The position numbers and the translations under genes are program-made. The notes under the pieces were generated by a model, which ran no database searches, was not told the DNA's origin, and saw nothing but the letters and a program-made list of their open reading frames with translations. This document shows, piece by piece, positions 34,807 to 47,947 of a stretch of 64,000 bases of DNA. Source of the stretch: Candidatus Jettenia caeni (lineage in GTDB: Bacteria; Planctomycetota; Brocadiia; Brocadiales; Brocadiaceae). Numbering within the stretch: position 1 is the first letter of the stretch; each line of letters starts with the position of its first letter. The DNA is taken from contig BAFH01000004.1 of assembly GCA_000296795.1 (NCBI GenBank), positions 372,001-436,000 of the forward strand, written 5' to 3'.

Positions 34807-37149
34807 TTGGAAAATTACATCCGAACCATTCTCAAATACAGAAAAGTAATTCTGGCTTGTATTGCCGTTATAACGCTGTTCCTGGGTTATTCTGCCAAAA
34901 ATATGAGAACCGATAATTCTATAGAAATCTGGCTTTCAAAAAATGATGCAGACCTGGATTATTATAAGAAATTTTTAAATACATTTGGAGATGAAGAGTT
35001 TTTGGTTATTGCCTTCAGTTCGGTTACCCTGTTTACCGGAGATCGTATCAAGGAAATTAATACCATAGCTGAAAGATTGAAAAAGTTGAATGGTATTGTA
35101 CAGGTTATATCATTAGCCGATGTATTTAAAGACACAATCACCTCTTCCCTTTTTAAGGCAAAAATTAAGGCTCAAAACGACCGCTCATATATGAATATTT
35201 TTAAGCAACACATACTCACAGACCCAATGTATCAAAATACTATTATTTCCAAAAACGGTAAGACTACAGCTATTATAGCAACAGTTAAAAGCCCTGGACC
35301 GGAATCAAGAAGACAACTCATATCGGAAGTAAGAACACTCCTCCATGAAATGACTGACAGATCAGGAGGCACAAAGGATAGGAAATCTCATTATCATCTG
35401 GCAGGCCCCTCCGTTGTAAATGCCGAGCTTGACCGTATGTCAAAACAGGATATGGCCAGGTTTACACCGTTTATGTTTCTTATGTCGATCATTGTATTGG
35501 GATGTTTATTGAGAAAAGTCTCCGGAGTATTCGTTTCACTATTGACCGTCGGAGTTTGCATATTATGGGTTACGGGTTGCTTTGTATTACTGGGACAAAC
35601 CATGAATATGATCTCCAATATGCTACTTCCCCTAACCTTCATCATTTCCCTTTCAACCTCAATCCATCTTGTCAGCCATTATTACCACGAGAGAAACTTT
35701 TCCATAAGCAATGAAGACGCTGTCTATAACACGATACAGCATATTGGTATACCTATTTTTATGACCAGTATTACAACAGTAATTGGATTTATATCATTGG
35801 CTACCAGTAGTATTCCACCCGTTTTTATTACCGGTCTGTTTATGGCCGGATGCGCAGCGCTTACCTTCGTGATCAGTTTAACGTGCATACCCATACTACT
35901 TTCCTTTATCCCGCATCAGATTTCCGTCAGTATTACAAACGCTCCCGACACCGGGAAAGGACATACGGTATCCCTCACAGAAAACTGGTTTGCAGAAGGA
36001 TTAGATAAAGAATACTATTTTCATGCCATGCTATCCTGGCTAGGAGGCTTCATCGTAAAACACAAGACCCTTATACTGCTCTGTGGCCTTACTGCGGGAA
36101 CGGTTTCTGTACTGGGCATCTCAAGAATCCGGATAGAATCAGACATCATGGCCTCCTTTCCAAAGAATAGCCAAATTGCCAGAGATAACAACTATATCGA
36201 GAGGCATCTTATGGGCCTGCTGCCAGTCGAGATCGTTGCTAAGACAACAGATGGCGTTACTCTTCTTCAGCCTGATATACTGAACAATCTGGCATGTCTC
36301 CAAAGATATCTTTATAGCATACCCGAAGTAACCAGTTCGCTTTCCATGGTAAACTATATCCAAAAGGCACACCAACGAGCAACCAGCAATAAACCACAGC
36401 ATTCATTTATTCCGAACACTGAAAAAGAGATAGCCAATTATATGAAGCTGGCTTCTTTCTATGGCGGTAAACAGGTACATTGCTTGCATACAGAAGGATA
36501 TACCGATGCAAGGATATCAGTACGGATGAAACAGGTAGGTTCAAACCGGTATCAAACTATTATACAATCAATAAAAGAACATATTTCGCAACATTTGAAT
36601 ACAACCGCCCTGTCATGGCACATTACGGGAATTATTCCCCTTCTCATTAACGTACAGGATAATATTCTCCGGAGCGAGATACAGTCATTTTCCCTGGCCT
36701 TTTTGTTAACCTTCATTTCAACAGTAGTTGTCTTAAAATCGGTCAGGATTGGACTCATCAGCATCATCCCCAATGTGTTGCCGATTACGATAACACTGGG
36801 CTTAATGGGTTTTACCGGTATGAAACTTGATGCAGCAACGATCATGATTGCCAGTATTGCATTGGGAATTTCCGTCGATAATACGATCCATATTTTTTAT
36901 CGCTTTAAAAAAGAATTTTCTCGTGATGCCGATTATTCAAAAGCGGTATGCCGTACATTGCAGGGAGCGGGAAAAACAGCTCTGTTTACCTCTCTGTCGG
37001 CTGCCTTTGGATTTATGGTCTTTTCCTTCTCAGGTTTTAAACCCATACAATATTTTGGCATGTTAACAAGCGTTACTATGGTAAACGCCATTGTATCTGA
37101 TTTATTTATATCTCCAAGCTGCCTGATGTTATTTAAACCGAGATTTTGA
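34807..37149 (+). CDS. RND/MMPL-family lipid exporter, HpnN-like
   Basis: The 780-aa protein has the twofold RND layout: one helix, a large loop with YYKKFLNTFGDEEFL, five helices, a second loop and five more helices. The GISVDNTIHIFYRF segment with its two Asp/Asn-type residues matches the MMPL/HpnN proton-relay helix. RND proteins of this type export hopanoids or other lipids to the outer membrane. The start is TTG with a weak RBS. Together with SCP2 and the acyl reductase it would move a modified lipid; whether the cargo is a ladderane, a hopanoid or an alkane is open. Confidence 0.85.
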   Translation: MENYIRTILKYRKVILACIAVITLFLGYSAKNMRTDNSIEIWLSKNDADLDYYKKFLNTFGDEEFLVIAFSSVTLFTGDRIKEINTIAERLKKLNGIVQVISLADVFKDTITSSLFKAKIKAQNDRSYMNIFKQHILTDPMYQNTIISKNGKTTAIIATVKSPGPESRRQLISEVRTLLHEMTDRSGGTKDRKSHYHLAGPSVVNAELDRMSKQDMARFTPFMFLMSIIVLGCLLRKVSGVFVSLLTVGVCILWVTGCFVLLGQTMNMISNMLLPLTFIISLSTSIHLVSHYYHERNFSISNEDAVYNTIQHIGIPIFMTSITTVIGFISLATSSIPPVFITGLFMAGCAALTFVISLTCIPILLSFIPHQISVSITNAPDTGKGHTVSLTENWFAEGLDKEYYFHAMLSWLGGFIVKHKTLILLCGLTAGTVSVLGISRIRIESDIMASFPKNSQIARDNNYIERHLMGLLPVEIVAKTTDGVTLLQPDILNNLACLQRYLYSIPEVTSSLSMVNYIQKAHQRATSNKPQHSFIPNTEKEIANYMKLASFYGGKQVHCLHTEGYTDARISVRMKQVGSNRYQTIIQSIKEHISQHLNTTALSWHITGIIPLLINVQDNILRSEIQSFSLAFLLTFISTVVVLKSVRIGLISIIPNVLPITITLGLMGFTGMKLDAATIMIASIALGISVDNTIHIFYRFKKEFSRDADYSKAVCRTLQGAGKTALFTSLSAAFGFMVFSFSGFKPIQYFGMLTSVTMVNAIVSDLFISPSCLMLFKPRF

Positions 37150-37235
37150 ATGGATACAATAATTCGGATTTCTCTGGATAGTATTTTCTTTCTCCACAAT
37201 TATTGGCACGTAGCCCATACAGGAGATAGTACTAC

Positions 37236-38435
37236 ATGAGCAGGATATCTACTCATACTATAAAATATTATGATCTTCTCCAGAAAGAGGACCGGCTCGT
37301 CTCAGATCAAAGGGTAAGATTGCTAACAATTCAGGATGCCAAATGGTTTTCAACGTCAAGAGATGCATGGATACAAAAGGTACTATCCATTCACTTTGAT
37401 CCTGATAGTGGCTCACCATACTGGCTTCAAAAGGAAAAGATTTTAAAGATCAATGCACGAAAGGACATCTCTTCCCTGGAAGATTTACACCTATTAGGTC
37501 CTATGGAGGAAGAAGACCTTCGGCGATACCCACTTGAGTATTTTATTCCCAAAATTTACCAGAAGCATAAGGAAAAGCTCATACTGGGAGAAACAGCAGG
37601 AACAACAGGTCTCCCAAAAGTAACAGCATATTTAAGAGACGAGTTCTACATCACTTTTGTAGAGTGGTTCAGGTACATTGCAGTACATCGTGGATTCCCA
37701 AAAGGTCTTCATTGGTTATGGGTTGGACCCAGCGGCCCCCATATTATAGGCAAGGCAGTCGGTCCTGTAGCAAAAAGCATGGGGAGCATGGATCCATTTT
37801 CCATTGATATGGACCCGCGATGGGTAAAAAAACTGAAACCCGATTCCCTCGGATACAACAGATATCTTCATCATATTATTGAACAGGCATTGGACATATT
37901 GAAACGCCAGCATATCGGGGTAATCTATTCAACTCCTCCCCTGTTAATGGCTCTGGCTGAAGCGATGAAAATTGAACAAAGAATGGAGATACGCGGCATC
38001 CATTACGGCGGAGTTGCTCTCGGAGAAGAACAACTGAGAAAGCTTAGGAATGAACTTTTTCCCAATGCTGTCCATATCGCTGGTTATGGAAATACCCTGT
38101 TTGGTCTGTGTATGGAAATTGCAGAATCTCCGCATGGCAATCTGGATTATTACCCACCAGGGCCTCGTATGATTCTCCAGGTTGTTTCAGCGAAAAATGG
38201 CATGCAGCCTGATAAACAGCGTCTTACTCAAGTTGTTGAATACGGAGAAAAGGGACAAGTAGTATGCCATCGGTTTGACGAGTCCTTTTTTATCCCTAAT
38301 ATGTTTGAAAGGGACGAAGCCGTTCGAATTGCGCCTACAAAAAATGCTCAATCTCTCGGTATTTATCAGGATGGTGTTAGAAATCCGTCATTATTACATG
38401 GATTAGAGGCAAACGTGAAGACAGGAGTTTATTAA
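37236..38435 (+). CDS. Acyl-activating adenylate-forming enzyme (PaaK/LuxE-like)
   Basis: The 399-aa protein has the adenylate-forming signature GETAGTTGLPK, a YxGYGNT-like segment (IAGYGNTLFGLC), and a C-terminal half with VVEYGEKGQVV. Its length and N-terminus (YWLQKEKI) are closer to phenylacetate-CoA ligase and LuxE acyl-protein synthetase than to long acyl-CoA synthetases. It would activate a carboxylic acid for the reductase at the head of the cassette, the pairing used by LuxE/LuxC. A 5' gap of 86 nt follows the exporter gene. Confidence 0.8.
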   Translation: MSRISTHTIKYYDLLQKEDRLVSDQRVRLLTIQDAKWFSTSRDAWIQKVLSIHFDPDSGSPYWLQKEKILKINARKDISSLEDLHLLGPMEEEDLRRYPLEYFIPKIYQKHKEKLILGETAGTTGLPKVTAYLRDEFYITFVEWFRYIAVHRGFPKGLHWLWVGPSGPHIIGKAVGPVAKSMGSMDPFSIDMDPRWVKKLKPDSLGYNRYLHHIIEQALDILKRQHIGVIYSTPPLLMALAEAMKIEQRMEIRGIHYGGVALGEEQLRKLRNELFPNAVHIAGYGNTLFGLCMEIAESPHGNLDYYPPGPRMILQVVSAKNGMQPDKQRLTQVVEYGEKGQVVCHRFDESFFIPNMFERDEAVRIAPTKNAQSLGIYQDGVRNPSLLHGLEANVKTGVY

Positions 38436-38470
38436 AAATACGATGTAAAACCGGCAGAAGGAGAGAATCT

Positions 38471-38741
38471 TATATGCATCAAGCTAAAATGTGCAAACGG
38501 TGAAGAATAACAAACTACCCGTAATCCCCCTTAGTCCCCCTTTAGAAAAGGGGGAAATCCAAACCCCCTTGATTCCCTTTAAAAAGAGGGAGATGGTGAA
38601 TGTTTTAAAAGAAGGGGAAATGTGTGAGTGATTGAGGAAAGGGGGAAATATATGGGTGTTTTAGAAAAGAGGGAAATTCCTCGTTCCCCCTTTTCTAAAC
38701 TTATCCTTCTTTCTCCACTTTTCTAAAGGGGGGTTAGGGGC
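38471..38741. repeat. About 270-bp dispersed repeat, copy of 10846-11052
   Basis: It starts CAAGCTAAAATGTGCAAACG, has repeated CCCCCTTT / AAAGGGGG blocks and GGGTGTTTTAGAAAAG-type spacers, and ends CTAAACTTATCCTTCTTTC followed by AAAGGGGGGTTAGGGG. It aligns to 10846-11052 along most of its length, with extra blocks in the middle. Confidence 0.7.
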
Positions 38742-38755
38742 ATATGCATCAAGCT

Positions 38756-38945
38756 AAGCGCTGGTAGCTTGCTATCTTGCTCCCAAACTCTGTTTGGGAG
38801 CGCGCGTGTCCGAGAAACTCTGTTTCTCGAATCAAGAAGTATCTGGTCGTATGGTTCCTCAAAACTATAGATTCTCGAAACGGAGTTTCCAAGCAATTAC
38901 GTTCCCAAACAGAGTTTGGGAGCAAGCTACTAACGAGCTACGAGA
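38756..38945. repeat. Nested palindromic element with AAACTCTGTTT cores
   Basis: The outer arms TAGCTTGCT / AGCAAGCTA enclose CTCCCAAACTCTGTTTGGGAG, CGAGAAACTCTGTTTCTCG, a half-site CTCGAAACGGAGTTTCC and TCCCAAACAGAGTTTGGGA. The core AAACTC-GTTT is shared with 10711-10809, while each flank changes on both sides together and so keeps base pairing. Confidence 0.75.
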
Positions 38946-38977
38946 ACCAATATAGGCCCAAAGGGCTGGAAGTCTAT

Positions 38978-39102
38978 TTTTTTATGGAATAATATTCTTA
39001 ACTTGATGCATATAGGGGCGAATCTTGTGTTCACCCTGATCGTGAGAAAACGCACAGGTCTTGAATTTACACAAAGGGTGGGCGAACACAAGGTTCGCCC
39101 CT
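38978..39102. repeat. Repeat with ATTCTTAACTTGATGCATAT and a GGGGCGAA / TTCGCCCC palindrome
   Basis: ATGGAATAATATTCTTAAC plus TTGATGCATATA matches 972-1003. It joins a long palindrome with arms AGGGGCGAATCTTGTGTTC and GAACACAAGGTTCGCCCCT. A fragment GGATTCGCCCCTACC lies near 48189. The whole gap 38436-39155 is repeat sequence with no gene. Confidence 0.7.
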
Positions 39103-39155
39103 ACTATGATCCAGCAGTATTTTGAGTAACTACCTTATTATTGAGAGAGGATATT

Positions 39156-41381
39156 ATGAAATTATCTGAAACAGCTATCGAACTACTTGCGCCGGCTGGC
39201 CGCTGGGAGACATTAACAGCGGTGATAGAGGCTGGCGCTGATGCAGTATATATTGGTGGTAAACGCTTTAATATGCGGCTTCACAGGTCAGATTTCAATT
39301 TTAGTAATGAGCAGATCACAGAGGCTGTGCAATTCGCACATAAGAGGAAAGTAAAACTGTATATTACGGTAAACAATTTGCTTGACAATGATGAACTGGG
39401 TGAGATCACACATTTCCTTACCTTTTTACGTGAAATTCAAGTTGATGCTATTATAGTTCAGGATCTGGGGATTTTACATCTCATGCGACAAACGGGAATT
39501 CACATACCCATCCATATCAGTACGATGATGAACATTCATAATATTGAATCTGCATTTACCCTACAGGAATTGGGGGTAAAACGTATCGTTACCTCCCGGG
39601 ATATCTCCCTGTCGCAGGTAAAAGAAATACAGGAAAAAACAGGCATTGAGGTTGAGTATTTTGTACATGGAGATCTTTGTGTTTGCCAAAGTGGACAGTG
39701 CTATGCAAGCGGCGTGCTATTTGGTAAAAGCGCCAACCGGGGTGAATGTATGAAACCATGCCGATGGAATTATACCCTTGTGGAAAGCGTCTCGGGACAG
39801 CCAATAGGAGACCTCCCTTCAGGATATTTATTGGCAATGAAAGATATGTGTCTCCTGAGGCATATTCCAGACCTTATCCATGCAGGGATCTGCTCCTTTA
39901 AAATCGAGGGACGAATGAGGCATGCCGATTTTCTCAGAACAGTAGTGAGTATCTATCGTAAGGCAATAGATGCTTATCTTGATAGCCCCGCTACGTATTA
40001 TATGAATTCTGCAGAGTATGAGCAATTGTATAACCATCGGGTGCGTGAATTCACAACCTCCATAGCATTTACCCCTGCATCAGCTTCCATTATTGATTTT
40101 TCGGGTAATCGTGAACCTCTCTTTTTAAGCCGTGCAGCAAAAGAAACGTCGCTTACAAAAGAAGACATCTACAACAATCCCTTTGAGGACCTCTTCACGG
40201 TTCCATGGCTACAAAGAATGCAGGAGATTCCTCCATCTAGTCCCTTCCATAAGGAAAGGAATTGCGATCTCTCCTCCCTTGTTGACAGAGATAGTAGTTC
40301 CCCTACCCTTGATGGAAGGGATAGAGGAGAGGAAGAAAACCCTTCGATACCCTCTTTAGGGGAAAACCTCTGTGTTCATCCTTCTGTAACGCCACCCGTT
40401 CTCCATACTTCTGTTACAAAATATACAGAGTCGTTACACCCTTTATTATCGGTAAAAGTGAGTTCATTAAGCGCACTCAGAACAGCGCTGGAGCAAGGCG
40501 CAGACCGCATATATATCAGCGGTGAGGTATCACCCTTGAGAAAACAGTTCTGGACAAAATCATCCTACCGGGAAGCATGTAAAAGAGTCCACGATACCGG
40601 TAAAACTATCGGAATAGGTACGCCGCGGATAACAACAGCCCTTGAAATGGATAATATGGAATGGTTATTCGAACAGGCCTCCCTATCAGGTATTGATTAC
40701 ATCCTGGTTCATAATCTGGGTACCATGCGCCTGGCTATGAAATTTAATGTAAAAGTCCTTGCGGATTATTCTCTGAACATTCTCAATATACAGGCGGTAA
40801 ACCTTTTAGAGGATCTTGGCGCCTTAGGAATTACCGCGTCTCCGGAATGCTCTTATAAATATTTAAGACAGTTATCTCATGAAATATCTCTGCCTGTGGA
40901 ATGTATCGTACATGGACCTGTTTCCAGCATGGTACTTGAACACTGCATCCCTGCCATGGTAACTTCTAAATCGCATAAAAAAGACCATTGCAGACAGGTA
41001 TGTCAATACATGGGATATGCCCTGAAAGATGAACGGGGAGAAATACGCCCAATCGAAATAGACCAATACTGCCGTAATCATCTCTTACTGGCAAGGGATA
41101 TCTGCGTATTACCTTATCTCCATACGTTTCTGCAAACCGGGATAAAAGCATTAAGAATTGAGGCGCAGTATTATGAAGACGGGTTTATAAAAACCCTGGT
41201 TGGCTTATACCATAAGTACTTGAATATAGCGCAAGAATATCCCTATCTCTCATTACCTATACAGGAAAGTGATTGGGATACATTAGCGAAAGAAAGTCCC
41301 CGGGGTCTTAATCTGGGTGGCTATACACAAGATATAACACATTCAAAAAGCACAGCAGGAATAATGAGAAGTATCAAATAG
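39156..41381 (+). CDS. Two-module peptidase U32 family protein
   Basis: U32 proteins are misnamed peptidases; several are prephenate-dependent hydroxylation enzymes for tRNA or 23S rRNA (TrhP, RlhA), usually with a Cys-ligated iron-sulfur cluster. The 741-aa protein has an N-terminal module (LLAPAGRWETLTAVIEAGADAVYIGG at about 10-36 in parts) with Cys-rich HGDLCVCQSGQCYASG and GECMKPCRWNY. A second module has VECIVHGPVSSM and HCRQVCQYMGYAL. The linker (about 360-430) is low-complexity and reads through a dispersed repeat. The start ATG follows GAGAGG; a TTG at 39141 is in frame but poorer. Confidence 0.85.
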   Translation: MKLSETAIELLAPAGRWETLTAVIEAGADAVYIGGKRFNMRLHRSDFNFSNEQITEAVQFAHKRKVKLYITVNNLLDNDELGEITHFLTFLREIQVDAIIVQDLGILHLMRQTGIHIPIHISTMMNIHNIESAFTLQELGVKRIVTSRDISLSQVKEIQEKTGIEVEYFVHGDLCVCQSGQCYASGVLFGKSANRGECMKPCRWNYTLVESVSGQPIGDLPSGYLLAMKDMCLLRHIPDLIHAGICSFKIEGRMRHADFLRTVVSIYRKAIDAYLDSPATYYMNSAEYEQLYNHRVREFTTSIAFTPASASIIDFSGNREPLFLSRAAKETSLTKEDIYNNPFEDLFTVPWLQRMQEIPPSSPFHKERNCDLSSLVDRDSSSPTLDGRDRGEEENPSIPSLGENLCVHPSVTPPVLHTSVTKYTESLHPLLSVKVSSLSALRTALEQGADRIYISGEVSPLRKQFWTKSSYREACKRVHDTGKTIGIGTPRITTALEMDNMEWLFEQASLSGIDYILVHNLGTMRLAMKFNVKVLADYSLNILNIQAVNLLEDLGALGITASPECSYKYLRQLSHEISLPVECIVHGPVSSMVLEHCIPAMVTSKSHKKDHCRQVCQYMGYALKDERGEIRPIEIDQYCRNHLLLARDICVLPYLHTFLQTGIKALRIEAQYYEDGFIKTLVGLYHKYLNIAQEYPYLSLPIQESDWDTLAKESPRGLNLGGYTQDITHSKSTAGIMRSIK

Positions 41382-41387
41382 TCAAGA

Positions 41388-41455
41388 GTGCAGGGCGAGG
41401 CTTTCGCCTTGCAAAGGCGCAAACCTAAAGGTTTGCCCTACAGAATTGAAATTCC
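41388..41455. repeat. Dispersed repeat, variant of 6973-7070
   Basis: GGCGAGGCTTTCGCCTTGC and GCGCAAACCTAAAGGTTTGC palindromes are followed by CCTACAGAATTGAAATTCC. Compared with the copies at 7 kb and 11.5 kb the stems are changed on both sides together (ACCC/GGGT to AACC/GGTT), so pairing is preserved. Confidence 0.7.
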
Positions 41456-41487
41456 TACGTATATTAATAGTATAAGGAATTATCGTT

Positions 41488-42774
41488 ATGATAATAAACT
41501 ATATCGGGCCTGATGACATCATTCGGAAAAAACAGGAATATTTGATTCCCTGCGTCTATCACTTCTATAAAAAGCCCATGCAAATTGTCCGGGGCAAGAT
41601 GCAATATCTGTATGATCATACAGGTAAACAATATCTGGATTTTTATGGTGGGGTATCCGTGATGAATGCAGGTCACTGTAATCCAGAAATTATCGAAAAG
41701 ATATGTAGTCAAATTGGAACGCTTCAGCATACCACTACCATATATCTAACCCAACCTATTGTGGATCTGGCAGAAAAACTTTTTCAGATTACTCCACAGA
41801 CACTGAAACGTTCATTCTTTTGTGCCAGCGGGTCCGAGGCAAACGACGGAGCTACTCTCCTGGCTCAATTATATACGAAAAGGCATAAGTTCATTGCCGT
41901 TCAGCAGGGACTCCATGGACGCACAAGACTTACTATGAACCTTACCGGTATCCCGATGTGGCGAACAGACCCTTATCCCCTGAGCGATATTGTTCATATC
42001 CCTGCCGCATACTGTTACCGTTGCGCATTTGGGCTTACTTATCCCCGATGTGATTTAACATGCGCAAAGCATATTGGAGATATTATTAAAAACGATGACT
42101 TTGCTGCCTTTATTATCGAACCGATCCATGGCAACGGAGGCATTATTACTCCGCCACCGGAATATTTTCAGATAATTCGGGAAATCCTCGATAAACACAA
42201 CGTACTCCTTATAACGGACGAAGTGCAAACAGGGTTTGGCAGGACGGGAGAGATGTTTGCCATTGAGCACTGGGGTGTTATACCCGATATTATGACTATG
42301 GCCAAAGCACTAGCCAACGGCACTCCTATAGGCGCCTTTATCACAAATGATAGAATTGCTTCAGCATACACACGTCCCGGAGCATCTACAACAGGTGGCA
42401 ACCCCGTATCAGCAACCGCAGCGTTAGCAACTATCGATGTTGTTGAAAAATACCAGCTTGTGCAGAGAGCAAAAGAGTTGGGTGATTACTTCAAAGACAA
42501 ATTAAAAACAGTACAACAAAGTCACAACCTCATAGGAGATGTGCGCGGGAAAGGACTCATGTTAGGTATTGAACTTGTTAAAGAGGACAAAGTCCCTGCT
42601 GCAGAAGAAACAGATTATATCCTCGAAGAGTTAAAAGATCGTGGAATCCTTGCAGGAAAGACTGGTATATCGCGTAATGTGCTCACTTTTCAACCGCCTT
42701 TGATAATCACCCGCAATAATATAGATCAGGTAGTAGAAACATTGGATGAGGTATTGTCACATACACAAAAATAA
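41488..42774 (+). CDS. Class III (acetylornithine/AGXT2-like) aminotransferase
   Basis: The 428-aa PLP enzyme has the class III signatures: GSEANDGATLLA, DEVQTGFGRTG with the catalytic Asp, and the Schiff-base Lys273 in MAKALANGTPIG. It has an N-terminal FYGGVSVMNAGHCNP as in alanine-glyoxylate aminotransferase 2 and related omega-aminotransferases. Four Cys between residues 170 and 195 (CYRCAFGLTYPRCDLTC) are unusual and may bind a metal or a redox group. It ends 2 nt before a GTG that could start the cytochrome b gene; its link to the respiratory cluster is positional only. Confidence 0.9.
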   Translation: MIINYIGPDDIIRKKQEYLIPCVYHFYKKPMQIVRGKMQYLYDHTGKQYLDFYGGVSVMNAGHCNPEIIEKICSQIGTLQHTTTIYLTQPIVDLAEKLFQITPQTLKRSFFCASGSEANDGATLLAQLYTKRHKFIAVQQGLHGRTRLTMNLTGIPMWRTDPYPLSDIVHIPAAYCYRCAFGLTYPRCDLTCAKHIGDIIKNDDFAAFIIEPIHGNGGIITPPPEYFQIIREILDKHNVLLITDEVQTGFGRTGEMFAIEHWGVIPDIMTMAKALANGTPIGAFITNDRIASAYTRPGASTTGGNPVSATAALATIDVVEKYQLVQRAKELGDYFKDKLKTVQQSHNLIGDVRGKGLMLGIELVKEDKVPAAEETDYILEELKDRGILAGKTGISRNVLTFQPPLIITRNNIDQVVETLDEVLSHTQK

Positions 42775-42785
42775 AAGTGAAAATA

Positions 42786-43379
42786 ATGCTTCAAAAAGAC
42801 GTACTACATAATAAAGACCATACAGAAACCATTCATGAGATTGAAAACGAGAATTTTCTCAAGGAATTCATAGAAAGTAGTATCACCAGGCGGTTAATTC
42901 CTAAAGGTTTGAGCTGGTTTGGATGTATGGGCGGATTATCACTACTGGCATTTATAATTCAACTGGGAACCGGTATATTTCTTATGTTTTACTTTGTTCC
43001 CAGTACAAGAGAAGCGTTAGCCAGCATTCACTATGTAAGCCATAAGGTTTCTTATGGATGGCTTATCCAACGTACCCACGCTATAGGACCACATATTATG
43101 ATTGGAATGGTACTAAGCCATATGATCCGTATTCTCTTCAAAGGAATCTATCATCATCCGCGGGAGCTGCATTGGGTATCAGGGGCTTGCCTGCTTATCT
43201 TAACGTTACTTATGTATTACACAGGGAGTTTACTACCCGCCCACAATGACAAATATTCAACCATACATTTGACATACCTGTATGCTATACACGTCGCAGG
43301 TATTCCACTGGCTATGGTAGTATGTATGGGTATGCATTTCTTTATGATTCGCAAAACAGGTATTTATGAACCCCTGTAA
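42786..43379 (+). CDS. Cytochrome b6-type membrane cytochrome b (N-terminal half)
   Basis: The 197-aa protein has four membrane helices and both bis-His haem b pairs: His98 and His112 in helix B (THAIG...LSH) and His169 and His184 in helix D (AIHVAGIP...MHFFMIRKTGI). It has the 14- and 15-residue spacings of cytochrome b6, plus PRELHWVSG. Cys47 in WFGCMGG matches the Cys that binds the extra haem c of b6f-type complexes, so a third haem is likely. It is separate from subunit IV, as in b6f. A GTG at 42777 is an alternative start. No Rieske gene is in the window. Confidence 0.88.
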   Translation: MLQKDVLHNKDHTETIHEIENENFLKEFIESSITRRLIPKGLSWFGCMGGLSLLAFIIQLGTGIFLMFYFVPSTREALASIHYVSHKVSYGWLIQRTHAIGPHIMIGMVLSHMIRILFKGIYHHPRELHWVSGACLLILTLLMYYTGSLLPAHNDKYSTIHLTYLYAIHVAGIPLAMVVCMGMHFFMIRKTGIYEPL

Positions 43380-43421
43380 TAGGTAAAATGGAAAGCAAAA
43401 CCAGAGGTACTGAGATATAAA

Positions 43422-43871
43422 ATGAAAGACTATACAAAACACAAAAGACCTGAAATGCTCGAACCATTCTTCCCAAATGAGATATTCAGGCATATCATCG
43501 TCTCCTGCTTCTTCATTGTTATCGAATTAATCGCCGTTATCGTATTCCCATTGCCTGCTAACTTAGTAATCAAAAAGCCAGATCACATTCCCTGGTTTTT
43601 GTTACCCGTGTATAAACTAAACAAACTTATTCACCATGAGACCCTGTTCATTTCTCTCTTAATGCTCTTTGCATTGTTATTTATCTCATGGCCATTTCTT
43701 GTAAGCAGAAAAAGGCATACGGCATTACCTATTAACAAGGAACAGGATACCCGTATTCATCATGTTTGCTATACTAGAAGACACGTCAATTTATGGCAAA
43801 GTCCAATTCCATTTACCATTGTTATCGTTGTTATTATCTCGGTAGTTATGTTATGTTTTGTAAACCTGTGA
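43422..43871 (+). CDS. Cytochrome b subunit IV-like protein (C-terminal half of cytochrome b)
   Basis: The 149-aa protein has three membrane helices and aligns with PetD/subunit IV: FFPNEIFRHIIVSCFF, then KPDHIPWFLLPVYKLNKL, then SLLMLFALLFISWPFLV. The Qo-site motif normally read PEWY becomes IPWF, so the catalytic Glu is missing. Quinol oxidation by the usual bifurcating route is doubtful. Six to eight Arg/His/Lys residues precede the last helix. It overlaps the next gene by 19 nt, implying coupled translation. Confidence 0.75.
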   Translation: MKDYTKHKRPEMLEPFFPNEIFRHIIVSCFFIVIELIAVIVFPLPANLVIKKPDHIPWFLLPVYKLNKLIHHETLFISLLMLFALLFISWPFLVSRKRHTALPINKEQDTRIHHVCYTRRHVNLWQSPIPFTIVIVVIISVVMLCFVNL

Positions 43872-44836
43872 AATTACTCCCAAAACTTCTTCCCGTTTTC
43901 TTTTCAGCCGTAGGGCTTCTATCATCCGGCTGTGTTATCTATCCTGAATTAGTAGAAAAAGGGATGTATGCTCCGAAATCAGAACGGTGTGGAGATTGTC
44001 ATAAAGATATTTATAACGAATGGAAGAATTCTCCTCATGCCCGCAGTTTTACAAATGCCGAATTTAAGGAAGAGACGAACACCTATCAGTTTACTTTTTG
44101 TTTAGGATGCCATGTCCCGGAAACTATTTTTACGGATAAAAAAATTGAACCACGCAGCGAGAATCTGGCAGAAGGTGTGCATTGTAACAGTTGCCATTTG
44201 AATGATTGCAAATTAAGTGGCCCTACGCCTGCACATGGACCGCATCCCATACATGAGAAGAATCAATTCTTTAGAACAAGTGAGATGTGCGGGAAATGTC
44301 ATATAGGCACATTTCTGGCATGGCAGAAATCAGATACAATTGAAGAGAAAAAGACATGCCAGGATTGTCATATGCCCTCCATAAAACGGAAACTCATTCA
44401 GGATGATCCCTGGCAAAAGATATATCCGAAGAGAGAAGGAAAGCAACATCTGTTTTCATCACAAACCTTGTTCGATACACATAACACGTTATTAACCATG
44501 TCATTTATAAAGGTCATTCAATGCAATGGCAGGATTGAGGGTATCCTGGAATTAGAAAATACGGGTACCCCCCATGGCATACCTACAGGAGATTATGGAT
44601 ACAGAGAGGTTGTTCTAACAATAGAATTACAGGATGAAGCAGGCCGGGTCGAAGATTTAAAAAAGGAAAGTTTCTTTGTCGAAATGAAAACAGCTCTCCA
44701 ATACAGGGAAAAAAGATGCATCCCGTTTTATTTTCATTACGATGGCGATTCGTATGCAATTAAGGCCACGATACATCGAATATCCTTTCATAAGGATACG
44801 GATATTCTCCTGGCAGAGGTAAAATATACATCGTAA
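43853..44836 (+). CDS. Pentahaem c-type cytochrome, cytochrome c554-like lipoprotein
   Basis: The 327-aa protein has a signal sequence with a lipobox-like SSGC and five CxxCH motifs: CGDCH, CLGCH, CNSCH, CGKCH and CQDCH. The first lies in CGDCHKDIYNEWKNSPHARS, characteristic of the cytochrome c-552/554 family. A beta-rich C-terminal domain (HGIPTGDYGYREVVLTIEL) follows the haem region. The start at 43853 inside the preceding gene puts the signal peptide at the N-terminus. It should accept electrons from the cytochrome b module on the exported side of the membrane. Confidence 0.9.
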   Translation: MFCKPVKLLPKLLPVFFSAVGLLSSGCVIYPELVEKGMYAPKSERCGDCHKDIYNEWKNSPHARSFTNAEFKEETNTYQFTFCLGCHVPETIFTDKKIEPRSENLAEGVHCNSCHLNDCKLSGPTPAHGPHPIHEKNQFFRTSEMCGKCHIGTFLAWQKSDTIEEKKTCQDCHMPSIKRKLIQDDPWQKIYPKREGKQHLFSSQTLFDTHNTLLTMSFIKVIQCNGRIEGILELENTGTPHGIPTGDYGYREVVLTIELQDEAGRVEDLKKESFFVEMKTALQYREKRCIPFYFHYDGDSYAIKATIHRISFHKDTDILLAEVKYTS

Positions 44837-44844
44837 CATCAGGT

Positions 44845-46287
44845 ATGTTTAAAGAGGTAAAAGAATTAAATAAAAGAACTGCTGTCAGGCTTGCAATAGC
44901 TTCCCTTATAGCGATAGGGATACTTGGTATTACTTTGTTTATCACAGGAGCACAACCGAAGCGCTCACACTATTGTGCTAAATGCCATAATCATGTCTCG
45001 TTCAATAATGCGTGTAAAAAATCGTTACCGAAAGATATTGCCTGTATTGAATGCCATACCCATGAGAATAAAATTACGGCTGTACTAGCTCTGGAGATAA
45101 GAGATGAACATTGTACTGCAGAGCAGTGTCATCCCTTAAGCAAATTATCAGCACAATCAACCCAATACAAAAAACTGAAACCGTTTCAACATAAAACACA
45201 TCTTATAAAAGAAAGCAACGAAAACACCGGAAGTCTCAAACTAAGATGCACCTCATGCCATGCCGCTATGAGTGAAGAAAAACATTTTGAAATAGATACC
45301 AGTACGTGTAATATATGCCATTTTATTTCGCAATTTGCCACAGCACAATCCCGCTTTCTCACTTCTCCCTCATCTCAAGGAGAAAATGCATCAAAATCGT
45401 ATACGATGATAAATACCCGGCAACTCGTTCATACAGAGGAGGAGAAAAGATCTGTTTCCGAATGTACCTTATGCCACGATCATATAGAAAAAACTAAAGA
45501 GATATATGGAAAGATTTTTGAACATGAGGTGTATGAGAAAAACGAAAAAGTATCCTGCTCTGATTGCCATTTTAAAATCATACAAGGAGATGGAATCGTA
45601 GATAAAAACAACTGTTACCGGTGCCATGTAAAGATTTCTGATGCTTTGAATACTGTTTCAGAACTGCACGATATCCATATTGACCAGCATAAGACCGCTT
45701 GCACTTCATGTCATACTCCTATTACACACGGATGGCCTAAAACAAGGAATAAGGTTTATGGGGATAATAACCTGAAATCCATCGATTCAAACTATACGAT
45801 ACAGAATTTGATCATGACCGGCCTGGGTGGCATGGGTATTAAAGGTGAACCTGATCCTATGTATCTTGCAACATTGAATTGTTCTGCATGCCATAAGGAT
45901 GAAGAGTTCTATACAAATGTAGCATCAGAGATATGCAACAATTGCCATGACAAAGGATTTGATACAATAGTATCTGAACAAATGCAATTTGTAAAATTAA
46001 GGATACACGTGTTGAGAGCTTTATTGATACAGGTAAAGAGACATCATACTATTGATACAGATGCTATTGTGCGGCAAATTATACTCCGATTACACCCATT
46101 ACTTTCTTCTCTTATGTATCCTTACAAAGCAGAAAAGAATCTTTTCCCTTTTGATACCATAGTCCATGAGGCAGAAATAAATTATAATCTCATAAAAGAG
46201 GATGGCAGTTTCGGTGTCCATAACATTAAGCATGTAAAAGATCTTTTAGACTATAGCATTGCAAATTTAAAACAAATCGTAAAATAA
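44845..46287 (+). CDS. Decahaem (or 11-haem) c-type cytochrome with membrane anchor
   Basis: The 480-aa protein has one N-terminal helix (about 12-34), probably a NapC/NrfH-like anchor. It has ten CxxCH sites: CAKCH, CIECH, CTSCH, CNICH, CTLCH, CSDCH, CYRCH, CTSCH, CSACH and CNNCH. An extra CTAEQCH (CX4CH) could carry an eleventh haem, which would require an unusual attachment. The last 130 residues are helical without haem sites. It starts 8 nt after the pentahaem gene, so it is in the same operon. A short Ser/Gly/Asn segment near residue 175 looks inserted. Confidence 0.9.
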   Translation: MFKEVKELNKRTAVRLAIASLIAIGILGITLFITGAQPKRSHYCAKCHNHVSFNNACKKSLPKDIACIECHTHENKITAVLALEIRDEHCTAEQCHPLSKLSAQSTQYKKLKPFQHKTHLIKESNENTGSLKLRCTSCHAAMSEEKHFEIDTSTCNICHFISQFATAQSRFLTSPSSQGENASKSYTMINTRQLVHTEEEKRSVSECTLCHDHIEKTKEIYGKIFEHEVYEKNEKVSCSDCHFKIIQGDGIVDKNNCYRCHVKISDALNTVSELHDIHIDQHKTACTSCHTPITHGWPKTRNKVYGDNNLKSIDSNYTIQNLIMTGLGGMGIKGEPDPMYLATLNCSACHKDEEFYTNVASEICNNCHDKGFDTIVSEQMQFVKLRIHVLRALLIQVKRHHTIDTDAIVRQIILRLHPLLSSLMYPYKAEKNLFPFDTIVHEAEINYNLIKEDGSFGVHNIKHVKDLLDYSIANLKQIVK

Positions 46288-46292
46288 ACCCT

Positions 46293-47255
46293 ATGATTAA
46301 ACCTCTTTTTTTCCTTATTTTTTCTCTTGGCATTATTTCATTACAACAATCAGTTCAAGGGAATAATACTCTTTTACGAAAGCCATACAGGGCAGTAAAT
46401 TCCATACTATCTCATACGGGAATGGAAATGCGCATTTCTCCTTCTTCAGGAGTGTCTGAAGAGCAATTAGCAAAATCCCAAAATAAATCTCCCTTCCCTA
46501 CAACTTCTTGTACTGACAGATGCCATGTAAATTATCTGGCATATCGTACTATGTATCAGAAGAAGACTTTCAAACATAAAACACATTCTCCCGATAAAGG
46601 TTTGGAATGCCATCAGTGCCACAATAACGATCCGGTTAATAAAAGCACACACGGCAATTTAGTTATACAAAATGAGGATTGTTGGATATGCCATCATAAA
46701 AGATCAGGTAAAAAATCCACAGACCCTTTATCCTCGCAAGAGAACGGAAATCTCTTTACCTCCATAGTCCCCCTTAATCCCCCTTTAGAAAAGGGGGACA
46801 AGAATTCTCCTTTTATAAAGAAAGATTGGAGAGATTATGGATTTACAGGGAAGAAAAGATCAACAGATAATGGGGATTGCTTGAAGTGCCACGCAGAGGT
46901 AGAGCAATATATCAACGGGAGTATTCAAAATATAGGCACAGAAGTACCTGATTGGATGTCTAACTGGGTCTCCTGTACTGATTGTCATAGATTGGAATCG
47001 AATGAAAATTCGTTTAAATCTGTGCGAACATATTGCATAGAATGCCACAATCCAGATTACGGGCTGTTATACGATGCGTGGAAGGAGGTTATTGACAGTA
47101 AAACTAAACACTTTTACCAAAATAACGCGCATACTTCAAGCATACAATACCGTCTGAGGTTGGTTCAATCTTATGGCATGCACAACTTTCGCCTGTCTCA
47201 AATGATCTTAAAATCAATTGAGCCGTTGGCAAATAAGGAGAAACGTAGATCATGA
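46293..47255 (+). CDS. Five/six-haem c-type cytochrome with a repeat-derived insertion
   Basis: The 320-aa protein has a signal peptide (MIKPLFFLIFSLGIISLQQS) and five CxxCH sites (CHQCH, CWICH, CLKCH, CTDCH and CIECH) plus CTDRCH (CX3CH) near the N-terminus. Residues about 157-172 (IVPLNPPLEKGDKNSPF) are encoded by a copy of the CCCCCTTT / AAAGGGGG intergenic repeat, in frame and between two haem sites. The protein may tolerate a disordered loop there. Its start lies 5 nt after the decahaem gene. Confidence 0.88.
   Translation: MIKPLFFLIFSLGIISLQQSVQGNNTLLRKPYRAVNSILSHTGMEMRISPSSGVSEEQLAKSQNKSPFPTTSCTDRCHVNYLAYRTMYQKKTFKHKTHSPDKGLECHQCHNNDPVNKSTHGNLVIQNEDCWICHHKRSGKKSTDPLSSQENGNLFTSIVPLNPPLEKGDKNSPFIKKDWRDYGFTGKKRSTDNGDCLKCHAEVEQYINGSIQNIGTEVPDWMSNWVSCTDCHRLESNENSFKSVRTYCIECHNPDYGLLYDAWKEVIDSKTKHFYQNNAHTSSIQYRLRLVQSYGMHNFRLSQMILKSIEPLANKEKRRS
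46764..46803. repeat. Intragenic copy of the CCCCCTTT / AAAGGGGG dispersed repeat
   Basis: CATAGTCCCCCTTAATCCCC followed by CTTTAGAAAAGGGGGAC is the same core as intergenic copies at about 28416 and 38520. It is in frame in the cytochrome gene and adds Pro/Leu/Lys/Gly-rich residues with no haem ligand. Confidence 0.8.
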
Positions 47256-47947
47256 TTGAAGAATCTGTGTACCTGTATGCTGATACATTAAAGCTGGAAG
47301 GGATATTAACCTATGATGAGGATGCACTTCCATCATCAGCAATCTTATTATGTGCACCCCATCCTAATTTGGGTGGCGATATGGATAATAATGTTATTAC
47401 AAGCATTGCACGAGTATCGGCTGATATGGGATTTTTATCTCTTCGATTCAACTACCGTGGTGTGGGAAATAGTGAAAGTCACGAGAAGGACATCGTTCAA
47501 AAATTTCATTACTGGGAAGAGTCTTTACATGGAAGGAATTTAATGGATGCCGTCACTGACACACAAGCCGCTCTCGACTTCTTGCTTTCACAAATTGCCG
47601 TACACGATAGAATATTTGTTGCCGGATATTCATTTGGCGCCCTCGTTGGTATGAAAATGGGCACAGAGAGCAGCAGAGTATTGGCTTTTGCTTCTATCTC
47701 CACTCCTTTTGGCCGGTACAATCTTGATTTTTTATCCCATTGTAACAAGGAAAAATTATTTATTTATAGTCAAAACGATTTTGCAACCACGGCAGAGGAG
47801 ACCGTAAACGGTTTTACAAAAATATCATCGCCCAAAATTTTAGAATTAATAGAGAATAGCGATCATTTCTACAGGAATCAGGAGGATAAGGTTTCACAAA
47901 AAGTTTGTTCCTTTTTTAGCCATATCAAGGTTCATGAAAGAAAATAG
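47252..47947 (+). CDS. Alpha/beta hydrolase
   Basis: The 231-aa protein has the alpha/beta-hydrolase nucleophile elbow GYSFGA (Ser), an oxyanion-side HPNLGGDMDN near the N-terminus, FNYRGVGNSES and a likely catalytic His in ENSDHFYR near residue 210. The nearest well-described pattern is the small CocE/NonD/YghX-like hydrolases of broad bacteria. Substrate unknown. It overlaps the cytochrome gene by 4 nt (ATGA), so it is co-transcribed; a role in haem or lipid handling is possible but unsupported. Confidence 0.8.
   Translation: MIEESVYLYADTLKLEGILTYDEDALPSSAILLCAPHPNLGGDMDNNVITSIARVSADMGFLSLRFNYRGVGNSESHEKDIVQKFHYWEESLHGRNLMDAVTDTQAALDFLLSQIAVHDRIFVAGYSFGALVGMKMGTESSRVLAFASISTPFGRYNLDFLSHCNKEKLFIYSQNDFATTAEETVNGFTKISSPKILELIENSDHFYRNQEDKVSQKVCSFFSHIKVHERK

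Follow-up and report, generated by a model that had tools for sequence, protein, structure and literature searches.

Can a member of the Rieske/cytochrome b family still work once its Rieske protein and quinol-oxidation (Qo) site are gone, and what would it then do? The Qo site and the Rieske protein define energy saving in cytochrome bc complexes. The question is raised by a gene cluster of the anammox bacterium Candidatus Jettenia caeni, at positions 42786–47255 of a 64-kb window (the whole stretch of DNA analysed, C4:372001–436000 of the 4.09-Mb, four-contig genome). Five genes on the + strand, tightly packed 3' of a class III aminotransferase gene, encode a b6-like cytochrome b (cytb), a subunit-IV-like protein (SUIV) and the multihaem cytochromes C5, C10 and C6. 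A first-pass annotation, whose gene coordinates and reading frames proved correct, had described a quinol–cytochrome c module that may not bifurcate electrons. We find that the cluster keeps the ligands of its b haems and of haem ci but has lost both the Rieske gene and the Qo site, and that its product probably links quinone straight to multihaem cytochromes, with no splitting of electron pairs.

The identity of the two membrane subunits is clear from their profiles. Cytb matches Pfam Cytochrome_B (E=1.9e-23), and its best PDB matches are cytochrome b6, both by profile (E=3.7e-48) and by fold. As had been read from the single sequence, the four His ligands of the b haems and the Cys for an additional haem ci/cn are retained; together with the equivalents of R103/R114 they are invariant in 34 orthologues, and the Cys is invariant also in the Rieske-bearing relatives described below. 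SUIV alone had no Pfam or NCBIfam match; a profile of 12 orthologues matched PetD (6rqf_J, E=2.4e-8). The cluster thus has a four-helix b6-type cytb with four His ligands, the haem ci/cn Cys and a PetD-homologous subunit IV, all b6f-type features, while the b6f-type cd1/cd2 hairpin with PW(D/T)Q is absent. For the cytochromes, the annotated counts of 5, 10/11 and 5/6 haems agree with the motifs (Table 1). Because the CX4CH of C10 is conserved in 30 of 31 homologues and the CX3CH of C6 in 27 of 28, these proteins likely bind 11 and 6 haems, a count that beyond the CXXCH motifs rests on this conservation.

We then asked what the altered Qo motif means. Alignment with the PetD profile placed the PEWY Trp at Trp58 of SUIV and the PEWY Glu at Pro57, as the annotated IPWF reading implied; across 35 SUIV homologues this column holds Pro in 30 and Ser, Val, Leu or Ala in the rest, but never Glu. 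The Glu-less motif had been taken as the main sign of a complex that may not bifurcate, but it is not diagnostic. In this genome, the SUIV proteins of the two NAD(P)-linked anammox Rieske/cytb complexes (L039 5856–6572 and L041 3353–4186) read APWY (KAPWYFLG), yet these complexes have a Rieske protein, so the motif alone cannot show a loss of bifurcation and was rejected as proof of it.

A deletion in cytb is more telling. The distance from the conserved TG that follows helix C to the helix-D His ligand of haem bL is 24 residues, compared with 54 in PetB; the approximately 30 residues missing in the Brocadiaceae-type anammox family are the cd1/cd2 hairpin. This hairpin closes the Qo site like a lid, and the head of the Rieske protein docks against it. 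Unlike the Glu-less motif, its deletion together with the missing Rieske gene can indicate that bifurcation has been lost. In Scalindua-type genomes and in G010, from a third family, the loop keeps its length and PW-Q is lost; with Glu and PW-Q gone and the hairpin kept, the Scalindua type is an intermediate state.

Could a Rieske protein come from elsewhere? As the first-pass annotation had noted, there is none in the cluster, nor is there one in the 64-kb window. Genome-wide, the Pfam Rieske model gave four matches, three of them near the three other cytb genes, one each. The fourth (G000:C4:522393–522626; L042 3086–4639) is the C-terminal domain of a 517-aa FAD-oxidoreductase-like fusion with an N-terminal GxGxxG; it is unlinked to any cytb and, judged by this architecture, is not a bc-type subunit. 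Comparing the Pfam matches with the cytb genes left no unpaired bc-type Rieske protein in the genome, and supply from another locus was rejected on this ground. Scanning for the Rieske motif gave no match in the window or in 70 anammox-order loci (71 sequences), compared with matches in 19 of 21 controls. A complete Q-cycle complex that borrows its Rieske protein in trans from another complex or locus would fit the retained ef-loop Trp and much of SUIV, and also the Glu-less state of this genome's Rieske-bearing complexes. However, each bc-type Rieske protein has its own cytb partner, the fourth is flavoprotein-like, the docking hairpin is deleted and no orthologous locus carries the motif, making such borrowing extremely improbable.

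To place the Rieske-less form among its relatives, we scanned named genomes. Orthologues occur only in anammox bacteria (Jettenia, Brocadia, Kuenenia, Loosdrechtia, Scalindua and further bins of the same order), and relatives at 33–40% identity come mostly from Phycisphaerae and other Planctomycetota. In the closest of these (L113–L127), a Rieske gene lies directly upstream in 15 of 15; PEWY is present in all 13 aligned SUIV proteins, and all 11 aligned cytb proteins have both the hairpin and the Trp of PW-Q. The cytb tree, built on 190 alignment columns, unites the 35 anammox proteins in a single clade (support 100/98), with the Rieske-bearing group as its sister (100/96 for the union). Because the Rieske-less clade is monophyletic and its sister group carries Rieske, PEWY and PW-Q, the loss of Rieske and Qo is derived within the anammox lineage. 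The Rieske-bearing sister, the Scalindua-type intermediate and the Qo-less form make up an evolutionary series from which it can be read which parts are separable.

The clusters of these relatives otherwise resemble that of Jettenia. They share the order cytb, SUIV, pentahaem protein and further multihaem genes, and several carry an 11-haem protein homologous to C10. They differ in the upstream Rieske gene, the intact PEWY and PW-Q motifs and the full cd1/cd2 loop, as well as in extra 10- and 13-haem cytochromes and, in some, fusion of the pentahaem domain to SUIV. As a further component, these relatives encode a cytochrome in which ten haem motifs precede a hydrophobic b561-like membrane domain (L115 11342–13582); the anammox version lacks it. 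In a literature search made mainly among openly accessible papers, we found no description of such a Rieske-less complex, nor a published description of the L113–L127 clusters.

Taken together, the lack of a spare Rieske protein, the cd1/cd2 deletion and the loss of Rieske, PEWY and PW-Q relative to the sister group make the non-bifurcating part of the annotated proposal well supported. The other part, electron flow from quinol to cytochrome, is not something that the sequence shows.

The pattern of conservation differs between the two faces of the membrane. In anammox cytb, mean pairwise identity is 0.82, 0.86 and 0.78 in segments on the negative (n) side but 0.58 and 0.32 in the loops on the positive (p) side, which in the Rieske-bearing relatives reach 0.82 and 0.78. 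Anammox SUIV likewise has identities of 0.74 on the n side and 0.49 in the ef loop, compared with 0.80 and 0.79 in the relatives. Selection has been relaxed mainly on the Qo side. The ratio of non-synonymous to synonymous substitution rates (dN/dS) is 0.2–0.34 between congeners and, where estimable, 0.07–0.2 in more distant pairs. Because these values are low, the cluster consists of working genes under purifying selection; gene decay was ruled out by dN/dS below 0.35 and by conservation across the order.

The subunits also travel together. Among 36 genomes of the order, SUIV is present in 22 of 22 with cytb and in 0 of 14 without it, an association whose p value is nominal as the genomes are related. 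In Kuenenia-type genomes (G029–G031) and G035, cytb stands beside the aminotransferase gene and SUIV-C5-C10 lies elsewhere (1.2 Mb away in G031), with all genes kept; in G017 and G022, SUIV-C5-C6 and cytb-C10-C6 occupy different loci. The annotated suggestion that partners may lie elsewhere is not confirmed for Rieske, of which none is spare, but holds for SUIV and the cytochromes, which have a second locus in Kuenenia-type genomes. Cytb, SUIV and the cytochromes would accordingly be read as one working unit from their joint retention. Second copies occur in G015, G019 and the congener G027. In the paralogous second copies (L047 5542–7560, L051 8633–10567), C5 gives way to an octahaem cytochrome that carries a carboxypeptidase-regulatory-like domain at its N terminus.

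The distribution of the complex bears on its role. The protein that takes hydrazine electrons onward in anammox bacteria has yet to be identified (PMC12954380). That the complex is the general hydrazine-dehydrogenase:quinone oxidoreductase would fit its anatomy and its conservation, which extends from Jettenia as far as Scalindua, with one occurrence in a third family; the Jettenia genome itself encodes hydrazine synthase alpha. However, the complex is missing from ten genomes of at least 90% completeness that have hydrazine synthase, and the presence of hydrazine synthase and cytb is uncorrelated in 62 genomes (Fisher p=1, with a marker often missed in fragmented bins). The ten genomes rule out a universal role and render the general one very unlikely. 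Because of them, the complex is not essential for anammox, and for hydrazine electrons it would be at most a lineage-specific solution, or may serve another donor or acceptor.

How would such a complex work? In a complex that retains haems bL, bH and ci but has neither Qo nor Rieske, only linear flow would remain, between an n-side quinone site and the p-side cytochromes; a Q cycle or bifurcation would be precluded because Rieske and Qo are gone. We consider it fairly likely that the complex is a Rieske/cytb complex reduced to a straight transmembrane haem wire, in which, on the reading that we prefer, electrons pass from cytochrome to menaquinone. A menaquinone site on the n side, beside haems ci and bH, would be connected through bH and bL to C5, C10 and C6 on the p side. 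Oxidations on the p side, such as those by enzymes similar to hydroxylamine oxidoreductase (HAO), would supply low-potential electrons that pass through bL to bH and reduce menaquinone on the n side. Protons would be taken up from the n side and charge moved in the useful direction, conserving energy, whereas flow from quinol to cytochrome would spend membrane potential. In ammonia oxidisers, the c554 family carries HAO electrons toward quinone. Because flow toward quinone would conserve energy and C5 belongs to the c554 family, we favour this direction as roughly twice as likely as the reverse.

The same Rieske-less wire could also run in reverse, with menaquinol oxidized on the n side and electrons passing from bH to bL and through C5, C10 and C6 to periplasmic, anammoxosomal or extracellular acceptors, as in CymA, CbcL or Mco. 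The wealth of multihaem cytochromes among its partners and the accessory distribution of the complex are compatible with this, as are reports of anammox extracellular electron transfer with a CymA-like protein proposed as the quinol oxidase (PMC7188810) and the link of the related Geobacter ext cluster, which has outer-membrane parts, to selenite and tellurite reduction (PMC5877670). However, we found no porin-cytochrome gene beside the cluster, and n-side quinol oxidation with electrons delivered to the p side would cost membrane potential. We therefore regard reversed flow as a possibility of some substance, though rather unlikely.

Several points weigh against a wire that reduces menaquinone. 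Its direction rests on the c554 analogy and on energetics, and the n-side quinone site is deduced from conservation. In SUIV, conservation persists at the ef-loop Trp, at the final Pro and at adjacent residues, so SUIV may retain some p-side role. The fold model of SUIV is weak (predicted local distance difference test score 63) and had no Foldseek match. A more specific form of the cytochrome-to-menaquinone wire, in which a stepwise-stripped bc member acts as an energy-conserving multihaem cytochrome c:menaquinone oxidoreductase that hands the electrons of hydrazine or of other nitrogen compounds to the quinone pool in the lineages that carry it, is offered tentatively and is, in our estimate, unlikely. 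If true, it would be at least one form of the membrane protein that the anammox energy scheme still lacks.

Among known systems, Geobacter extHIJKLMNOPQS is the nearest named one, although it is Rieske-bearing. It shares a split b6-like protein (ExtP cytb, with the membrane protein ExtQ) and multihaem cytochromes, including pentahaem ExtKL (PMC5877670). ExtP is the best NCBIfam match of Jettenia cytb (E=1.3e-40), at 139 bits, below the cut-off of 290, and C5 matches ExtKL weakly (E=9e-11); the Rieske protein ExtO, the porin ExtI and the rhodanese-like ExtH were not found in the Jettenia cluster. Mco of anaerobic methanotrophic (ANME) archaea, CbcL and CymA are alike in working, combining a membrane b (or c) subunit with multihaem cytochromes and no Rieske protein (PMC9012536), but their membrane proteins are unrelated and none is a Rieske/cytb-family member that has lost Qo.

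Closer to home, a 2025 paper lists three Rieske/cytb complexes in anammox bacteria (PMC12954380), to which the present one adds a fourth cytb complex. The Kuste4569–4574 and Kustd1480–1485 types (L039 and L041) share the split b6-type cytb, SUIV, multihaem cytochromes and a Glu-less motif, but differ in having a Rieske protein, a complete cd loop, PW-Q or a similar motif, and a subunit that is an NAD(P) oxidoreductase. Neither the NAD(P) oxidoreductase nor the Rieske subunit was found in the Jettenia cluster, whose cytb is only 32–40% identical to theirs. In this NAD(P)-linked pair, Glu residues are reported to be ligands to haem cN (PMC12954380). Position 24 of SUIV, which our own alignment matched to the cN-Glu column, is His in 28 and Tyr in 7 anammox-family proteins, Met in the Rieske-bearing relatives and Glu in L039/L041, a possible switch of haem-ci ligand.

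Table 1 Genes of the cytochrome cluster and its surroundings (window coordinates)
Feature	Position	Strand	Remarks
b6-like cytochrome b (cytb), 197 aa	42786..43379	+	Haem bL/bH His ligands, haem-ci Cys47 and n-side loops intact; ~30-residue cd1/cd2 hairpin missing
Subunit-IV (SUIV, PetD-like) protein, three predicted helices	43422..43871	+	Qo motif IPWF replaces PEWY
C5, pentahaem c554-family cytochrome, predicted lipoprotein (LLSSGC)	43853..44836	+	5 CXXCH; C-terminal conserved domain; weak ExtKL match
C10, N-terminally anchored cytochrome	44845..46287	+	10 CXXCH + 1 CX4CH; likely 11 haems
C6, exported cytochrome	46293..47255	+	5 CXXCH + 1 CX3CH; likely 6 haems
Alpha/beta hydrolase	47252..47947	+	4-base overlap with C6
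Class III aminotransferase	41488..42774	+	Directly upstream of cytb; neighbour kept across the order
Conserved upstream block	34807..41381	+	RND/MMPL transporter 34807–37149; acyl-CoA-ligase-like 37236–38435; U32 peptidase/UbiU-like 39141–41381

Within the cluster, cytb has an alternative GTG start at 42777, the start of C5 overlaps the end of SUIV (43853 and 43871, respectively), and C10 is present in a single copy in the genome. The alpha/beta hydrolase gene follows C6 in most orthologous clusters. On the other side, the transporter, ligase-like, U32 (UbiU/TrhP-like) and aminotransferase genes (34807–42774) are conserved next to the cytochrome genes in three families of the order, and the acyl-CoA-ligase-like gene is present in 30 of the 35 genomes that carry cytb. 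Two U32 halves make up the U32 protein, with a low-complexity linker between them that looks repeat-derived (SSPFHKERNC...). In C6, a dispersed palindromic repeat of the CCCCCTTTAGAAAAGGGGG type (about 37–57 bp; 56 matches genome-wide) has a copy that lies in frame at positions 46760–46820, so a mobile-like element is tolerated within a cytochrome gene.

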